Shown here: positions 36,929-44,106 of the stretch, piece by piece
Numbering within the stretch: the first letter of the stretch is position 1
Layout of the letters: each line of letters begins with the position of its first letter
Assembly: GCA_030529225.1 (NCBI GenBank)
Contig: JAUMXH010000004.1
Coordinates: forward strand, 1-64,000
DNA length: 64,000 bases
Reading direction: 5' to 3'
Source of the DNA: Bacillota bacterium
GTDB lineage: Bacteria; Bacillota; Clostridia; Peptostreptococcales; Acidaminobacteraceae
The notes under the pieces: model-generated
What the model saw: the letters and a program-made list of their open reading frames with translations, nothing else
Database searches by the model: none
Told to the model about the DNA's origin: nothing
Made by a program: the position numbers and the translations under genes

Positions 36929-37285
36929 TTGGAAGGCGGAAACTTGGCAAAACAGCTCATGGTGGACTTGTACGGATGCGATCGGGGCGTGCTCAACGAC
37001 GCCGAGGCGATTCGGAAGATTGCAAAGGAAATCGTCGAGAGCATCGGGGCGAAGATCGTGGAGGAGCAGCTTCACCTCTTTGAGCCGATCGGCATCACCT
37101 ACTTTGCGATCATTTCGACCTCGCACTGTTCCATCCACACCTGGCCGGAACACGGCTACTGCGCGGTGGACCTCTTTTCCTGCAGCCCCCTCGAAGAAGA
37201 GCGAATCGCTCGCTCCCTGAGCGAGTATTTTCATGCAAACGAATCGAAGAGTCAAACAGTAGAAAGGAGGATCAGCGCTGAATGA
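36929..37285 (+). CDS. speD: S-adenosylmethionine decarboxylase-like pyruvoyl enzyme
   Basis: 118 residues with a TTG start (GGGAGG upstream); a second TTG at 36944 with GGAAGG is an equally possible start. The class 1b SpeD core is clear: MVDLYGCDRG, then SHCSIHTWPEHGYCAVDLFSC. Ser65 would become the pyruvoyl group, His70 and Cys85 are the processing/catalytic pair. Oddity: the residue before the pyruvoyl Ser is Thr64, where the family almost always has Glu (ESH), so self-cleavage or substrate could differ; some SpeD homologues are known to act on ornithine or arginine instead. Its stop overlaps the next gene by four bases. Confidence 0.85.
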   Translation: MEGGNLAKQLMVDLYGCDRGVLNDAEAIRKIAKEIVESIGAKIVEEQLHLFEPIGITYFAIISTSHCSIHTWPEHGYCAVDLFSCSPLEEERIARSLSEYFHANESKSQTVERRISAE

Positions 37286-38442
37286 ATAAGTTTTCTGTAG
37301 GACAGAGACTGATGGCCGACGGCAAACTCTACACCGTCATCGGCTACATCGTATACAGCAACCTTCAAAACGGCGAATCCTGGACCGAATACCGCATGCT
37401 GTCCGCGAAGAACGAGGAGACCTGGCTGTCGGTGGACAACGAAAACGGCGAATATTCGATCTCGTGGCCGACCGTTCTGAACAACGGGCAGATTCCGGCA
37501 AAGTGGAAGAAGGTCGACGAGGGAACCCAGATGGTCGTCAATGCGGTCGGGGATGTCGATGTCGATGTGAATGAGACGGCCGACTTCATCGAGCACGAGG
37601 ATGAGACCGAAGAAGAAATCCTGTCCGTGGAGGTGTGGCCGGACGGAACCGAGGTTTCGGAAGGATTCTACCTGGACGAGAACGAGGTCTACCCGTTCAA
37701 CAAGCCCGAGCAAAAGGGAGGCGGATGCTCCGGATGCGCCGTCATGGTGCTGGTCGTATTTTTGATCCTCGCGGCCCAGACCATGTTCTTCGGCCCGAGC
37801 AAGTCACCGGCCTACGACTACATCAAATCGAGCTCTAATTATCAATATGTGACCGCAATCACCGGAAACGAGAAGCAGAAGGCCTATGTGTATGAATCCG
37901 TCGCCGATCCGAACAGCGTCAGTGCGCAGGAGTTGAAAAACCTGGAAAGCCAAATGAGCAGCAGGAACGAGCTAAGCGTGGACCCCAATCAGGCGGCGGT
38001 CGACCCGAAGATCGATTTTCTGGTCAAGGACCTGATTGTAAACGCGAACCTGAACATAGAATACGTGACTGAAAACAAGGAGACCAAGGACAGTGTGGCG
38101 GTGCTGACCGACAAGGAATACTGCCTCTTCTACCATCCGGAGACGGACCCGTCCAAGGTCTACGTGCAGGTTTCAGACAGAAAGTACAACTATTCGTCGA
38201 ACGTGGCCCCTTACGCCGCGACCATGGCGCTGAACTCGTGGTATCGCAGCCACTACTACAGCTCCGCCTTTTTTAGAGACTCCGCCAGATGGAGCGGGGT
38301 CCCGTCCGCTTACGACATGCACCAGGGGCCGATCGTCAAGGACCTGGGGAACGGCTATTATGATGTATATTCCAACGATGTGAGGCGCTCGAGCGTCATG
38401 CAGAGGGAGTCGATGGGCGGTGGCCACAGCGCCGGAAAATAG
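37282..38442 (+). CDS. DUF4178 (YjfK-type) membrane protein
   Basis: 386 residues. The N-terminal 70 residues carry the DUF4178 beta fold (VGQRLMADGKLYTVIGY, WTEYRMLSAKNEETWLSV), followed by an acidic stretch, a Gly/Cys patch (KGGGCSGCAV), a single membrane helix (about residues 156-172) and a C-terminal domain of about 210 residues, Ser/Tyr-rich, ending in a Gly/His tail. DUF4178 proteins cluster with DUF350, polyamine enzymes and sometimes PspA or ATP-grasp ligases; the biochemical role is unknown. ATGA overlap with speD shows tight coupling. Confidence 0.85.
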   Translation: MNKFSVGQRLMADGKLYTVIGYIVYSNLQNGESWTEYRMLSAKNEETWLSVDNENGEYSISWPTVLNNGQIPAKWKKVDEGTQMVVNAVGDVDVDVNETADFIEHEDETEEEILSVEVWPDGTEVSEGFYLDENEVYPFNKPEQKGGGCSGCAVMVLVVFLILAAQTMFFGPSKSPAYDYIKSSSNYQYVTAITGNEKQKAYVYESVADPNSVSAQELKNLESQMSSRNELSVDPNQAAVDPKIDFLVKDLIVNANLNIEYVTENKETKDSVAVLTDKEYCLFYHPETDPSKVYVQVSDRKYNYSSNVAPYAATMALNSWYRSHYYSSAFFRDSARWSGVPSAYDMHQGPIVKDLGNGYYDVYSNDVRRSSVMQRESMGGGHSAGK

Positions 38443-38473
38443 GAATTAGAACGAAGAATAAAGGAGAACACCA

Positions 38474-38908
38474 ATGGAAGCAATGTTGAAAACAAGTTTG
38501 GAACTTTTGGCTTATGTGGGCGTGGGAATCGCTTTGATGATGATTGGCAGCTTTTTGATTGACCTGATTATCCCCCTTGAGTTCCCAAAGGAAATCAAGG
38601 AGAACAACAAGGCTGTGGGCTGGCTGGTCGCCGGCATCTACATCGGCCTGGGCCTGATCATCAAGAGCTCGGTCAGCACCTTTACCGTCGCAATCGAAAA
38701 GGTCAGCCTGAAAACCGGCATCCTGGAGACCGTATTCTTTTCGTTCATCGGGATCCTGTTCTTCGGAATCGCCTACTACCTGCTGGATTTGGCGAATGTG
38801 AAGTACAAGTTCAACGAGGAACTCAGAAATAAAAATGAGGCGATGGGCATCATGCTCTTCGGCGTCTTCGTCGGAATCGGCCTGATTATCTCGGGAGTCC
38901 TTCAGTAG
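38474..38908 (+). CDS. DUF350 (YjfL-type) membrane protein
   Basis: 144 residues, four membrane helices arranged as two similar halves (each with VGIALMMIGSFLIDLI-like and IYIGLGLIIKSS / FVGIGLIISG segments), the normal DUF350 architecture. A long amphipathic stretch between the halves contains KEIKENNKAVG, and the second half has NEELRNKNEAMG at the matching place. Probably a small pore or anchoring protein in the cytoplasmic membrane; function is not established. AAGGAG site 9 bases before ATG. Confidence 0.88.
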   Translation: MEAMLKTSLELLAYVGVGIALMMIGSFLIDLIIPLEFPKEIKENNKAVGWLVAGIYIGLGLIIKSSVSTFTVAIEKVSLKTGILETVFFSFIGILFFGIAYYLLDLANVKYKFNEELRNKNEAMGIMLFGVFVGIGLIISGVLQ

Positions 38909-38938
38909 GCGAAAAAACGAAGAAACGAAGCGAATACC

Positions 38939-40453
38939 ATGAAGGAAAACAGGTCCCGCAAATACCGGCTTTTGATGTTTACGACCCTGATGATTTCGGG
39001 TTGTTCGATGTGCTACGAGCTGATCATCAGCGCGGTCAGCTCCTACCTTTTGGGAAACAGCATGTTGCAGTATTCCGTGACGATAGGGCTCTATATGTCG
39101 GCGCTCGGCATCGGCTCCTACCTCTCCCGCTACTTTCACAAAAAGCTCTTCAACAGCCTGGTTAAAATCGAGCTTGCCATCGGCTTAATCGGAGGCTGCA
39201 GCGCCATCAGCCTCTTCTTCGCCAACCTGCACCTGGAATCTTACGAGATTCTGATGTATTTTGAGATTCTGCTGATCGGCAGCCTGGCCGGCGCGGAGAT
39301 TCCCCTGCTCACCCGCATCATCGAGGAGAACGAAAAAAACCTGAAGTTCACCCTCTCCTCGATCTTCAGCTTTGACTACATCGGCGGATTGATCGGCGCG
39401 ATCGCCTTCCCCCTCCTCCTGATTCCCAAGCTCGGCTACTTCTCGACCGCCTTCCTCTGCGGCCTGCTGAACATCGTCGCGGCGGCCTTAATAGTATGGA
39501 AGTATGCGGATGAAATCGAGGGGGCGAGGCGCTATAAGGGCGCGACGCTCGCCCTTGGAATCGTGATGATACTGGGAATCTTCTTCTCGGAGAACATTTC
39601 GCAAACGGTCGAGCACGGGCTCTACCGAGACCACGTGATTCTGGACGAGCAGACCCTGTACCAGAAGGTGGTGCTGACCAGACACAAGGACGACACCCGG
39701 CTCTTTATTGACGGAAACTGTCAGTTTTCGAGTCTGGACGAATACCGCTACCACGAGGCCCTGGTTCATATTCCGATGAGCCAGGCCGAAAGCAAAAAGA
39801 GGGTGCTGATTCTGGGAGGCGGAGACGGCTTGGCGGTCCGGGAGCTTCTGAAGTACGAGGTCGAGCGGATCGACCTGGTGGACCTGGATGCCGAGCTGGT
39901 CAGGATCTGCAAGGAGAACGAGCACATCAGGAAGATTAACAAGGACAGCTTACAGAGCGAGAAGCTCAAGATTATCAACACCGACGCCTTTGAGTTTTTA
40001 AAGGAAGCGAAGGAGCGATACGACCTGATTATCGTGGATTTGCCGGACCCCAATTCGGAGGCGCTGAACAAGCTCTACTCCAACGTCTTTTACGAGATGT
40101 GCAAGGCCAGATTGAACGAGGGCGGGGTTTTGGTCAGCCAGTCCACCAGCCCCTTCTATGCGACCAAGGCGTTCTGGTGCATCCACAAGACCATGGAGAG
40201 CGTGGGCCTTCCGGTCAAGGCCTACCACCTGGAAGTTCCCTCCTTTGGAGATTGGGGCTTCAACATGGCAAAGAAGGGGGACTTTTCGGATCGCATCCGG
40301 ATTCCGGTTGAGACTCGCTTCTTAAATCAGGAGAACACGCAGGGGCTCTTCGCCTTTGCGAAAGATGAAATCGACAACGATGTAAAAATCAACCGCTTGA
40401 CCAACCCCGTTCTGATAGAATACTACAACAAAGCGGTGCAAACGTGGAGGTAA
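38939..40453 (+). CDS. Membrane-fused spermidine-synthase-like protein
   Basis: 504 residues. The first 215 hold about seven membrane helices (SGCSMCYELIISAVSSYLLG at the start is typical), followed by a cytosolic aminopropyltransferase-type Rossmann domain: VLILGGGDGLAVRELLK for decarboxylated S-adenosylmethionine binding, IDLVDLDAELV, the catalytic-type Asp in LIIVDLPDPNSEALNKLYS, and FGDWGFNMAKKG. Long forms with a membrane half are found with DUF350/DUF4178 genes. The product could be a polyamine or another aminopropylated compound made at the membrane. The ribosome site before ATG 38939 is weak, so translation may depend on the upstream genes. Confidence 0.85.
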   Translation: MKENRSRKYRLLMFTTLMISGCSMCYELIISAVSSYLLGNSMLQYSVTIGLYMSALGIGSYLSRYFHKKLFNSLVKIELAIGLIGGCSAISLFFANLHLESYEILMYFEILLIGSLAGAEIPLLTRIIEENEKNLKFTLSSIFSFDYIGGLIGAIAFPLLLIPKLGYFSTAFLCGLLNIVAAALIVWKYADEIEGARRYKGATLALGIVMILGIFFSENISQTVEHGLYRDHVILDEQTLYQKVVLTRHKDDTRLFIDGNCQFSSLDEYRYHEALVHIPMSQAESKKRVLILGGGDGLAVRELLKYEVERIDLVDLDAELVRICKENEHIRKINKDSLQSEKLKIINTDAFEFLKEAKERYDLIIVDLPDPNSEALNKLYSNVFYEMCKARLNEGGVLVSQSTSPFYATKAFWCIHKTMESVGLPVKAYHLEVPSFGDWGFNMAKKGDFSDRIRIPVETRFLNQENTQGLFAFAKDEIDNDVKINRLTNPVLIEYYNKAVQTWR

Positions 40454-40456
40454 ACG

Positions 40457-40756
40457 ATGGCTCAATACAAGATAGAGGCGCTTTGGGATTGCAATTTCTG
40501 CCGGACCAAAGGAATCAAGGGCGGCAAGCAGGATTGCCCGAACTGCGGGAAGACCAGGGGCGAGGATGTCGCCTTCTACCTTCCGGATGATATTTCGATT
40601 ACCAACAAGGTACAGGATGAGAGCAAGGTGAGCTCGGAAGCCGACTGGTACTGCGATTTCTGCGACAGCCTGAACAACGCGAATCGCAAAAAGTGCGCGA
40701 ACTGCGGATGCGAAAAACAAGAGAGCAGGAAGAACTATTTCAGTTTTCGAAAGTAA
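40457..40756 (+). CDS. Two-finger RanBP2-type zinc protein
   Basis: 99 residues. Two zinc fingers: WDCNFC...CPNC (residues about 10-34) and WYCDFCDSLNNANRKKCANC (about 58-77). The second fits the RanBP2 pattern W-x-C-x2-C-x3-N-x6-C-x2-C exactly; the first is a longer-loop variant. Such fingers bind ubiquitin or single-stranded RNA in eukaryotes; in bacteria they are uncommon and unassigned. A GGAGGT site inside the end of speE puts it in the same operon. It may act as an adaptor or regulator for the membrane proteins encoded upstream. Confidence 0.8.
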   Translation: MAQYKIEALWDCNFCRTKGIKGGKQDCPNCGKTRGEDVAFYLPDDISITNKVQDESKVSSEADWYCDFCDSLNNANRKKCANCGCEKQESRKNYFSFRK

Positions 40757-40854: not shown

Positions 40855-42036
40855 TTATTTGCAATACTTTTCTCGGAGCAATTCAGCCGCCTTCACCATG
40901 TTTTTGAGCTTCTCTTCGATCACCGGATACGGGTTCAAAGGTCTCTTCGCAAAGGTGGCAAACCCGCAGTCCGGGTTCAGCCAAACTCTTTCCGGCGGCA
41001 AAAATTCCAAGGCCTTCTCGGCCTTCTCCACGATTTCTTCGACGCTCTCCACGACATCGCTCCTCGGGTTGATTACCCCCAATCCCAAGGTAATTTTGTC
41101 CTTCAGCTTGTTGTTGCTGAACAGGTGCGAAACTTCTCCGGCTCTCGGAGTCGCGAACTCCAACGTCAGAACATCCAAGTCGATCGCGCTGAAAAAGTCG
41201 CCGAGCTTATCGTAGGTCCCCTCCAAAAGGACCGACTCGTCGCAGGTCCAATTCCCCCTGCACACGTGCATGGCCGAAACTACATTCGGATACTTTCTGA
41301 GCTCTTCAAACACCGGGATGATCAAATCTTTGGCAAATTGTAATTCTCGGTCAACCTTGACCTTCGCAGACAAGGCCCCTCAATAGAAAGAAGTGTCGCC
41401 CTTTGCCTGTGTGAACACGACCTCCGATAGAATCGGCTCGTCGAGCTGAATCACGCTCGCACCTAAGTCCACGAGTCTTTTGATCTCGTTTTTCAGGAGC
41501 TCCACAACATCGCGTCCGAGTTCTTTTCGATTCTCGTAGCCCGCAGAGGATTTTTCCTTGAGCCACATCGAGCGCGTCAACAGGTAGGGGCTCGGCAGGG
41601 TCGCCTTAAACGGTCTGTCGCTGACCTGTTTGAGCCTGCGGATTTCCTCGCTGTTGAAATCCGAATCGGTGTCTATTTTACCGATGCAGACGGGGCTGTT
41701 CATCGTATCGTCGGCCGCGTCCATCTCCTCCAAGCTCTCGGTAAAGCCGGCGCTGTCGCAGGTGTTCTGCAAGATTTCATTCATGTTCATCAGCTGAATC
41801 CCGCTCACATGCTCGGCAACGTAGCTCATATAGTTGTCGCGGTTCAGTTCTCCGCTGACGATCAGATCGATTCCGACCGCTTCCTGCAGCTTGATGACGC
41901 GCGCGGTTTCTTCCGCGAGCAGGGCCTCGTACTCAGCTTGATACTTGGGATTCAGAAGCGCCTTCTGCTTGAGCTCCAAGAGTTCCTTGGAACGCGGCAT
42001 ACTTCCCACCAAAGTTGTGGTAAATGCTTGAAACAT
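40855..42036 (-). CDS. MetE-like methyltransferase, probable selenoprotein (in-frame UGA)
   Basis: Read through one in-frame TGA (41382-41380), the gene gives about 393 residues with Sec at 219. Without read-through it would be a 218-residue protein plus a 172-residue ORF beginning at a TTG with no ribosome site. Both parts share one frame and join smoothly: VIQLDEPILSEVVF, then TSFY-U-GALSAK. The fold is that of cobalamin-independent methionine synthase (catalytic half, short form). The zinc ligands expected from Escherichia coli MetE lie after the UGA: His257 and Cys259 (MHVCRGN), Glu293 (VLTLEFATP), Cys357 (WLNPDCGF). Relatives that I recall have Cys at the UGA position. It would transfer a methyl group to a zinc-bound thiol or selenol; donor and acceptor are unknown. 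It lies 27 bases after the YedF-like gene in a selenium-linked operon. Confidence 0.85.
41349..41382 (-). promoter_or_regulatory. UGA codon with candidate bacterial SECIS hairpin
   Basis: On the minus strand UGA (41382-41380) is followed by a perfect inverted repeat GGUCAAGGUUGACC (41362-41349). Taking a five-pair stem GGUCA/UGACC, the apical loop is AGGU, with G as its second base, and begins 22 bases after the UGA. Bacterial SECIS elements are described as small hairpins with G in the first two loop positions, 16-37 bases downstream of UGA; this one fits. The coding constraint alone (KVKVDR) does not require the symmetry. Confidence 0.75.
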
Positions 42037-42063: not shown

Positions 42064-42396
42064 TTAAGGCTCTACTACCTTAGCCGCCTCCGACAACAAC
42101 TTGACCACTTCCGCCATCGTAGTGACTCTGCCGACTGACAAATCGTCGCTCAATTCATAATAGTCGAGGCAAGTGCCGCAAGACAGGATTTCCACGCCCT
42201 TTGATTCCAAGGCTTTCAAGTCGTCCAAGCTCGATGAACCCTTGCAAGTCAGCTTCACGCCCTCTCCGTAGAACATGATATGCTTGGGCAATTTTTCCGC
42301 TTCCGAGAGCACATGAATGAATCCGATCATCAGGTTGTCCGCAAGTGCCTTCTCTCCCACTCCCATTCCGGTTCCTTTTATGACTACATCGTACAT
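42064..42396 (-). CDS. YedF-like DsrE-fold protein (selenium metabolism family), no TusA domain
   Basis: 110 residues from an ATG with AAAGGAG. The whole protein is a DsrE-type domain: VVIKGTGMGVGEKALADNLM, LTCKGSSSLDDLKALESKGVEI, then SCGTCLDYYELSDDLSVG with two Cys, which is the hallmark of the C-terminal half of YedF. YedF proteins of selenium-using bacteria usually carry an N-terminal TusA/SirA domain of about 75 residues; none is present here or in the 137 bases upstream. Probably carries persulfide or selenium between partner proteins. Second-last gene of the csd-DUF3343-yedF-methyltransferase series. Confidence 0.85.
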   Translation of the reverse strand: MYDVVIKGTGMGVGEKALADNLMIGFIHVLSEAEKLPKHIMFYGEGVKLTCKGSSSLDDLKALESKGVEILSCGTCLDYYELSDDLSVGRVTTMAEVVKLLSEAAKVVEP

Positions 42397-42533: not shown

Positions 42534-42809
42534 TTATTCCTTCTTCTCCAAGAGGGTAAGATTCAGCTCCCCCGATACGATCTCGATTCGGTACAGGTTC
42601 CAAGCCGCGATCTCGGAAGCGCGAATCCGCTCCAGGGAAGCGTCCAAGTCCGTCAAGTTTACCTTGAGGGCCATCCCGCAACTCTCGGAGATTTCCCGCA
42701 GCACCGGAATGATCTTGGTCTGCAGGCCCTCCATCACCTTTTGCGACTTGATGGTCACATGCGGCGATTTGAAGGTGTATAACAAATAGCTTTCGTCTCT
42801 TCTAGCCAT
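42534..42809 (-). CDS. DUF3343 putative Se/S carrier protein
   Basis: 91 residues. Small alpha/beta protein with the conserved pattern LYTFKSPHVTIKSQKVM followed by IPVLREISESCGMALKV, where the Cys in ESCG is the proposed carrier residue. DUF3343 genes occur with SelD, YedF and class V aminotransferases in clostridia, from which a selenium or sulfur carrier role is inferred. It overlaps the end of the cysteine-desulfurase gene by eight bases. The 137-base gap to the YedF-like gene contains a GC-rich inverted repeat around TCCGGAC that I cannot assign. Confidence 0.85.
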   Translation of the reverse strand: MARRDESYLLYTFKSPHVTIKSQKVMEGLQTKIIPVLREISESCGMALKVNLTDLDASLERIRASEIAAWNLYRIEIVSGELNLTLLEKKE

Positions 42810-43971
42810 GGTTCAGTTCCTTTATTGCATCCAGGGTATACGCGAGCTCTTCTTTGCTGCTGAAGTGGCTGAGGGAGAAGCGAACCGTTCCCTGCGGGTA
42901 GCTCCCAAGCGTCTTGTGGGCGATGGGGGCGCAGTGCAGGCCGCACCTGGTCTTGATTCCGTGCTCGGATTCCAGGATCTCGGAAACTTCCGCGTTGTCA
43001 AAGTCGCGAAAGTCAAGGGAAATGACGCCCAAGCGAGTGGAAGCGTCGGCGGGCCCCACGATGCGAAAGGCGCCCGGACAGTCCTGCAAGATCTCCTGCA
43101 GTCCCGATAAAAAGAAGTCCGTCAGTTCCATTTCCTTTTCCCTGATGGCCCCGACTCCCCGTTCCAAAAGATATTCGAGCGAGGCGTGGAGACCGAAGAT
43201 CGCCGGGATATTCGGGGTTCCCGATTCCAACTTGTCCGGCAGGAACTCGGGCTGCACATCCGAGTTTGACAGACTTCCGGTTCCTCCGCTCACGAGAGGT
43301 CTGAGCTGTTTCGCAAATGCCTCTTCCAGAATCAGCAGCCCCAATCCTTGAGGAGCCAGGAGGCCCTTGTGGGCAGGGGTGCAGAGCGCGCTCAGATGGA
43401 GGGCGTCAAAGTCAACCTCTATGTGGCCGGCGCTCTGTGAGGCATCCAAAACGACCGGAATCCGCCTTTCATAGGCGATCGCGCAGAGCTCTTCCAATGG
43501 AAGGATCGCACCGCAGACGTTGGACGCATGAGACACGATCAGCATGTCCACCCCGCTATCCAGCAACTCCTTTGCTTTGGTAAGGTCCGAGAGACCGTCC
43601 TTGTCCGCAGGAATCAGACTGATCCGCAGACCTTGCTTCTCAAGTTCCCTCAGCGGCCTCATGACCGCGTTGTGCTCCAATGAACTTACAAGCACATGTT
43701 CATTGCCTTGAAGATAACCCTTGATCGCCTGGTTCAGCGAAAACGTTGCCCCGGGCGTAAAGATGACATGTGACTCGTCTCCCTTAAAATGAAAGAGCCT
43801 TTTTGCCAGCTCCCTGGTCTCATAGACCCGCATACTCGCGCTTTTCGCGTTTGCGTGCGTGGAGCGATTCACATTCGCCCCGATTTCCGTCATGTATTCC
43901 ACGACCGCCTTCACGACCGATTCCGGCTTCGGAAAGGAGGTCGCCGAGTTGTCTAAATATACGCTTTTCAT
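42802..43971 (-). CDS. Class V aminotransferase / cysteine-desulfurase family protein
   Basis: 389 residues starting at the ATG at 43971 (MKSVYLDNSATSFPKP) with AGAGGGGAT; the frame is open upstream but without a ribosome site. PLP fold type I: PLP Lys in CTPAHKGLLAPQG, Asp of the cofactor site in VVLDASQSAGH, mobile catalytic loop with the persulfide Cys in RCGLHCAPIAHKTLG. The sequence matches the EF2568-like subgroup that clusters with selD and yedF rather than the Isc or Suf desulfurases. Likely role: release S from Cys or Se from selenocysteine and pass it to DUF3343/YedF. First gene of the minus-strand selenium group. Confidence 0.88.
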   Translation of the reverse strand: MKSVYLDNSATSFPKPESVVKAVVEYMTEIGANVNRSTHANAKSASMRVYETRELAKRLFHFKGDESHVIFTPGATFSLNQAIKGYLQGNEHVLVSSLEHNAVMRPLRELEKQGLRISLIPADKDGLSDLTKAKELLDSGVDMLIVSHASNVCGAILPLEELCAIAYERRIPVVLDASQSAGHIEVDFDALHLSALCTPAHKGLLAPQGLGLLILEEAFAKQLRPLVSGGTGSLSNSDVQPEFLPDKLESGTPNIPAIFGLHASLEYLLERGVGAIREKEMELTDFFLSGLQEILQDCPGAFRIVGPADASTRLGVISLDFRDFDNAEVSEILESEHGIKTRCGLHCAPIAHKTLGSYPQGTVRFSLSHFSSKEELAYTLDAIKELNHG

Positions 43972-44106
43972 TCTTTTTATCCCCTCTCGCTTCGTCCTCC
44001 GTAAGTATAGCACAAAGGAAAAACCTTGAGAACCGAATCGAAACCGTATAAATAAAACAAATGGAGACGAGGCCATGTATCATTTTTTTTAATATGAACT
44101 TGGCGA

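Follow-up and report, generated by a model that had tools for sequence, protein, structure and literature searches.

Within the window analyzed here (a 64,000-nucleotide stretch of contig JAUMXH010000004.1 from a Bacillota bacterium of the family Acidaminobacteraceae), the preliminary description singled out two minus-strand open reading frames, 42036-41380 and 41373-40855, as lying in the same frame and being separated by a single TGA. Both the coordinates and the frame hold: the two ORFs (218 and 172 amino acids, respectively) are halves of one gene, a single open frame of 393 codons followed by TAA, with one internal TGA that corresponds to codon 219 (Table 1). The predicted product can be assigned to the MetE superfamily catalytic domain by its profile match, barrel fold and His-Cys-Glu-Cys residues, and shares 57-65% identity with genes of other Bacillota that also contain the UGA. 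The MetE-like gene is preceded, on the same strand, by three selenium-type genes, namely those for an EF2568/SclA-like desulfurase, a DUF3343 protein and a YedF-like DsrE protein, the same families that had been named originally and that our profile searches recovered. The desulfurase probably starts at Met36 of a longer ORF (42802-44076) and scores 329 bits against the model of the selenocysteine lyase SclA, under the cut-off of 525. The DsrE/YedF-like gene, which stops 27 nt short of the start of the MetE-like gene, encodes a protein with an invariant CGxC motif; although over the TIGR03527 cut-off, this protein corresponds to the DsrE half only and, unlike YedF, which combines TusA-like and DsrE-like domains, has no TusA half, so that YedF membership is not met. 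YedF and DUF3343 have been proposed as selenium genes in a study (PMC5322559) that makes no mention of the MetE-like gene; these families and the SclA/EF2568-like lyase, which are markers of selenium use (PMC5322559), are here its neighbours. A convergent set of plus-strand genes (36929-40756) encodes SAM decarboxylase, a DUF4178 protein, a small membrane protein, a membrane-fused spermidine synthase and a small zinc-ribbon-like protein with four CxxC motifs.

Table 1. Genes and sequence features of the MetE-like locus (positions in the window)
Feature	Position	Strand	Basis
Sec-containing MetE-like gene, 393 aa	40855..42036	-	ATG at 42036, TAA stop 40857-40855; PF01717, 131.9 bits (gathering score 21)
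In-frame TGA, codon 219, read as selenocysteine (predicted)	41380..41382	-	TGA/Cys comparison and Sec genes in the genome
Highest synonymous constraint of the gene, codons 219-234	41335..41382	-	Codon scan
SECIS-type hairpin GGUCA-AGGU-UGACC, loop 22 nt past the UGA	41349..41362	-	Conservation in 14 genomes
DsrE/YedF-like partner, 110 aa, CGxC motif	42064..42396	-	TIGR03527 C-terminal half, 127.5 bits (cut-off 110)
Se_S_carrier (DUF3343) protein	42534..42809	-	PF11823, 47.2 bits
Cysteine desulfurase/selenocysteine lyase-like	42802..43971	-	TIGR01977, 406 bits (cut-off 377)

A homologue search of genome contigs with the single protein as the query gave no match; a scan of GTDB genomes with an alignment as the query gave 400 matches and yielded 80 named homologous loci. 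Exactly one internal TGA, always aligned to codon 219, is present in 15 of these, namely in Gemella (3), Parvimonas parva, Tissierellia KA00581, Facklamia (2), Atopobacter, Companilactobacillus (5), an Acidobacteria MAG and an uncultured proteobacterium. The remaining 65 loci and the Paracoccus relative have cysteine at this codon, as the preliminary description had guessed for relatives of the protein. With the addition of a 16th further UGA gene from a Bacilli genome (G509/L178), the 16 further UGA genomes fall in six or more bacterial families. Because the same TGA recurs in 16 other genomes, it cannot be a sequencing error, which settles the doubt, raised at the outset, that re-sequencing might reveal a sense codon. 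In a 62-sequence alignment, every sequence (100%) has either Cys or UGA in column 219, and no cysteines of the family other than Cys219, Cys259 and Cys357 are invariant. The homologues pass one of the tests for a bacterial selenoprotein, having Cys or Sec in the column of the UGA. Among 391 genomes of the same class, we identified four close relatives (43-46% identity), all without a stop and with Cys at position 219; the 36 genomes of the query's own family contain a single weak, distant match (26% identity). The UGA genes fall into two distinct, fully supported clades of the phylogenetic tree (83 rows), one of which includes 15 Bacillota UGA genes, the query among them, and the other two distant genes; judging from this topology, two changes between Cys and Sec would suffice to explain the distribution of the UGA genes. 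Given that the nearest relatives sit in other families and orders and that the query's own family is nearly empty, we infer that the MetE-like gene likely spread horizontally.

The presence of selA, selB, selC and selD in the same genome, which the preliminary description had left to a genome-wide check, is another of these tests and is met as well. In the source genome (1.74 Mb in 37 contigs, 95% complete), a profile search identified genes for SelA (570.9 bits) and SelB (373.5 bits) that adjoin each other, tRNA-Sec was detected with 71.4 bits (cut-off 47), and selD is itself interrupted by an in-frame TGA, at the position usual for Sec (KAAG*AAK, UxxK motif). This TGA-split selD lies on the minus strand of contig C23 (L200:3787-4740 and upstream). 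SelB and tRNA-Sec are over the cut-off in all 15 UGA genomes first found, and SelD is present in all 16 further UGA genomes (15 of the scan and the L178 genome). Formate dehydrogenase has no match in the source genome and is absent from 13 of the 17 UGA genomes overall, the source included. The idea that the MetE-like protein is the sole keeper of the Sec trait was dropped since the source genome also has Sec-SelD; it is contradicted, too, by a TGA-split proline-reductase-like gene in the sel cluster of Companilactobacillus versmoldensis (identified by eye, with no profile search). In that cluster (L199, 5030-19131), proline-reductase-like genes, one of them split by a TGA, are found together with selD, yedF, DUF3343, selB, a SclA-like lyase and selA.

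Purifying selection continues beyond the TGA, with dN/dS values of 0.02-0.18 in the pairs measurable there. A scan of synonymous sites over the whole gene in 12 non-redundant Sec genes, corrected for the codon use of each gene, placed all top windows of the gene within codons 219-234 (excess of 0.44 vs a mean of 0.05, sd 0.08). This region encompasses the hairpin pointed out in the preliminary description, for which we could reproduce the sequence, the start 17 nt after the TGA, the distance to the loop and the G at loop position 2. Across 14 genomes, the hairpin is invariant or nearly so, with 95.7% of the cells paired, a value that none of 500 column shuffles reached (90.3% paired in these); the outer pair shows a compensatory double change from G-C to C-G in L178, the pair next to it is G-U in four genomes, and the outermost pair is lost in three. 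The UGA genes of the Acidobacteria MAG and the proteobacterium contain a different hairpin at a similar place. The helix is a short one of 5 bp with a single compensatory change, and an Rfam search gave no match. Because the 45-nt stretch, when folded alone, has an unremarkable stability (z -0.65) and favours a different pairing, folding energy was rejected as evidence and the case for the hairpin rests on conservation. The test for a SECIS element just downstream of the UGA is met with respect to position, loop G and distance, stability alone being not significant.

The AlphaFold model of the protein is a confidently predicted, single-domain, MetE-type barrel (pLDDT 87.1, pTM 0.89) that is closest to MetE from T. 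maritima. All the zinc ligands listed in the preliminary description (His257, Cys259, Glu293 and Cys357) are present and invariant in the 62-sequence alignment, as are the homocysteine residues Ser12, Glu63 and Asp199; the functional residues of MetE, in the E. coli numbering, are S433, E484, D599, H641, C643, E665 and C726 (PMC7857596). In the model, residue 219 starts a disordered loop (220-225 disordered) between the end of the strand with D199-E-P and the helix before the H257 strand. By the fold, this loop should be located at the catalytic face, and the closeness of Sec219 to the zinc is inferred from topology because the loop is modelled with low confidence. In MesD, a tyrosine of an insertion, Tyr226, extends to the carboxylate of the substrate (PMC7857596); judged by numbering alone, this insertion may be located in the barrel region that also includes the residue-219 loop.

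Among the characterized relatives, the C-terminal domain of MetE (PF01717; PDB 1xpg, 1xdj) has the same fold as the query (TM-score 0.74 by query) and shares its zinc ligands and the residues that bind homocysteine, but the query lacks the N-terminal folate-binding domain and has a third conserved residue, Cys/Sec219, on a mobile loop, as well as carrier-protein partners. It is not a member of the MetE equivalog TIGR01371 (116 vs the cut-off of 930 bits, and a single rather than two domains). The core methionine synthases MesA, MesB, MesC and MesD (PMC7857596) share with the query the stand-alone catalytic domain and the same functional residues (the test for the conserved homocysteine and zinc residues is met), and MesD (3rpd) is among the structural neighbours of the model; however, the conserved Cys/Sec219 is not among their reported functional residues (PMC7857596), and the genes to which the query is linked are Sec genes rather than those of the Wood-Ljungdahl pathway or MesX. 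The query is well under the cut-offs of the PRK04326-, PRK00957- and PRK09121-type models, and membership in the curated single-domain methionine-synthase families is not met (best score 146.6 vs the cut-off of 406 bits), nor is it for the Cys forms. The short MetE homologues of the YxjG/YxjH type (PRK06233, PRK06520; PDB 1ypx) have the short MetE fold, the zinc ligands and 25-30% identity to the query, but lack the residue-219 loop segment and form a separate branch of the tree (100% support).

The whole MetE-like family, the Cys forms included, tracks the Sec trait and DsrE/TusA-type carriers. Of 399 evenly sampled Bacilli genomes, 13 encode a member of the family, in two cases as a UGA form, and SelB is encoded in all 13 vs 85 of the 399 overall (hypergeometric P = 9e-10, uncorrected for relatedness). 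When only the genomes without the UGA form are considered, SelB is found in 11 of 11 (P = 2e-8, again uncorrected for relatedness). SelB is present in 42 of the 50 Cys-form genomes drawn from the list of homologues; because the other eight are without it, the Cys enzyme is useful without Sec.

Three recurrent gene neighbourhoods were identified. The DsrE/YedF-like gene is located directly upstream of Sec-MetE in all 13 Bacillota UGA loci tested. Most of the Cys loci (examples are L068, L088, L093 and L104) combine genes for an acyl-CoA-dehydrogenase-like protein, a phosphonate/selenate-SBP-like protein, Cys-MetE and an OsmC-like protein; the first two of these resemble, at scores under the cut-offs, the Rv1679 (FadE16) and Rv1680 families, and the SBP-like protein shows a further resemblance to a putative selenate-binding protein (TIGR04553). 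The third arrangement, TusA, DsrE, TusA-like and MetE, is found in Bacillales (Cys) and in the two distant Sec genes. On plasmid pFER4 of Paracoccus ferrooxidans (L045:3246-11460), the MetE-like domain, in its Cys form, is fused to a TusA-like domain, and the fusion gene clusters with those for a desulfurase, TusA and DsrE, selA and trxB.

Considering that 16 other genomes have UGA at this codon, that Cys takes its place in the other relatives examined and that the UGA genomes checked all have the Sec machinery, it is very probable, indeed close to certain, that the gene encodes a selenoprotein, although there is no protein-level evidence. The original inference that the UGA encodes selenocysteine is thereby supported, and its scope widens to a recurrent Sec/Cys family that is tied to selenium use and has partner genes. 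With the exact reaction left aside, we are confident in the broader assignment to a Sec219 selenoprotein of the MetE-like family in selenium/sulfur metabolism; the metabolic role taken separately is inferred, and likely. Under the scheme that we propose, UGA219 is read as Sec by SelA, SelB, tRNA-Sec and SelD, under the direction of the SECIS hairpin just downstream, and the product is a stand-alone MetE-type (beta/alpha)8 zinc enzyme with the zinc and homocysteine sites kept. A methylated selenium or sulfur compound might donate its methyl group to zinc-activated homocysteine or a similar thiol; the selenium or sulfur released in this way could be picked up by Sec/Cys219 on the flexible loop and would then be carried on to SelD by the DsrE/YedF-like partner together with DUF3343 and the desulfurase. 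Such a relay between the active site and a carrier is suggested by the nucleophilic Sec/Cys on a mobile loop and the CGxC-bearing DsrE or TusA carriers nearby. The specific demethylase reaction, in which selenium is freed from methylated (organo)selenium and passed via Sec/Cys219 to DsrE/TusA-type carriers, is the chemistry that we favour for the proposed thiol methyltransferase of selenium/sulfur handling, but it is inferred and offered only tentatively.

Standard gene callers would split the gene at the TGA, which is compatible with a TGA that is a genuine stop, an error of sequencing or a lesion in a pseudogene and that leaves two fragments or nothing functional. This interpretation is highly improbable given that codon 219 is TGA, never TAA or TAG, in 17 genomes including the source and Cys elsewhere, that constraint persists after the TGA, with all four zinc ligands located downstream of it, and that every UGA genome checked has the Sec machinery; the recurrent TGA and the low dN/dS downstream led us to reject both pseudogene and sequencing error. 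Decoding of the UGA in another way, by reassignment to Trp or Cys or by plain readthrough, has no specific support and can be practically disregarded in view of the tRNA-Sec, SelA and SelB of the genome, the Cys at this site in relatives, the conserved SECIS-type element and the UGA at the usual Sec site of the genome's own SelD.

With respect to function, the invariance of all MetE zinc and homocysteine residues, the missing folate-binding domain and the structural similarity to MesD could also point to a core methionine synthase of the MesA-MesD kind that is independent of folate, with Sec/Cys219 merely tuning or protecting the zinc-thiolate site and the selenium-type neighbours representing Sec supply. 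We regard this as rather unlikely because the protein scores far under all curated models, a plain methionine synthase would leave unexplained the tracking of SelB by the Cys forms (11 of 11 in Bacilli), and conserved TusA/DsrE carrier partners adjoin the gene. Alternatively, the flow might be reversed, with the enzyme methylating excess selenide, hydrogen sulfide or a selenol or thiol delivered by DsrE/TusA, in detoxification or homeostasis. The same genomic evidence (co-occurrence with SelB and the neighbourhoods) and the zinc-activated thiol or selenol chemistry of the fold are in line with this scenario, but there is no SAM-binding domain and no known methyl donor, and the partners are selenium-supply carriers (YedF, DUF3343, SclA-like), not export genes, so we consider it unlikely, more so than a methionine synthase.

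Known selenoproteins are mostly redox proteins, and the folds among these are few. There is no MetE or PF01717 entry in the 2026 inventory of 119 prokaryotic selenoprotein families (PMC13188914), and Sec-MetE does not appear in those parts of a 2022 review (PMC9312934) that are covered by term searches. Other methyltransferases with Sec, among them the selenoprotein arsenite methyltransferase, are listed (PMC13188914, Table 1) but belong to other protein families. Neither NCBIfam (June 2026) nor Pfam includes a Sec form of the MetE fold, all NCBIfam matches being of the methionine-synthase type and far under the cut-off. No described Sec-MetE was found in a search of the open-access literature; the Sec form of the MetE fold is very probably a previously undescribed family, an earlier description elsewhere being not excluded. 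If this is true, selenium would be placed at a zinc-thiol methyltransferase, which raises the question of the role of Sec. The strict link of the Cys forms, too, to the Sec trait points to an unrecognised gene family for selenium supply or homeostasis in many host-associated bacteria. Should the demethylase and relay scheme prove correct, it would represent an unrecognised branch of selenium assimilation, with three forms of gene neighbourhood, across Bacillota, Pasteurellaceae, Paracoccus, Acidobacteriota and others. Automatic annotation is expected to split or discard such UGA genes. The role of Sec can be tested directly thanks to natural Sec/Cys pairs, the two forms occurring together in one genome in Gemella bergeri (L047/L076), G. 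sanguinis (L049/L105) and Companilactobacillus zhongbaensis (L056/L085). In C. versmoldensis, the Cys paralogue (G448:C59:93925-95074; L180, L181) is disrupted by a frame change near codon 120, and the Sec form is intact.
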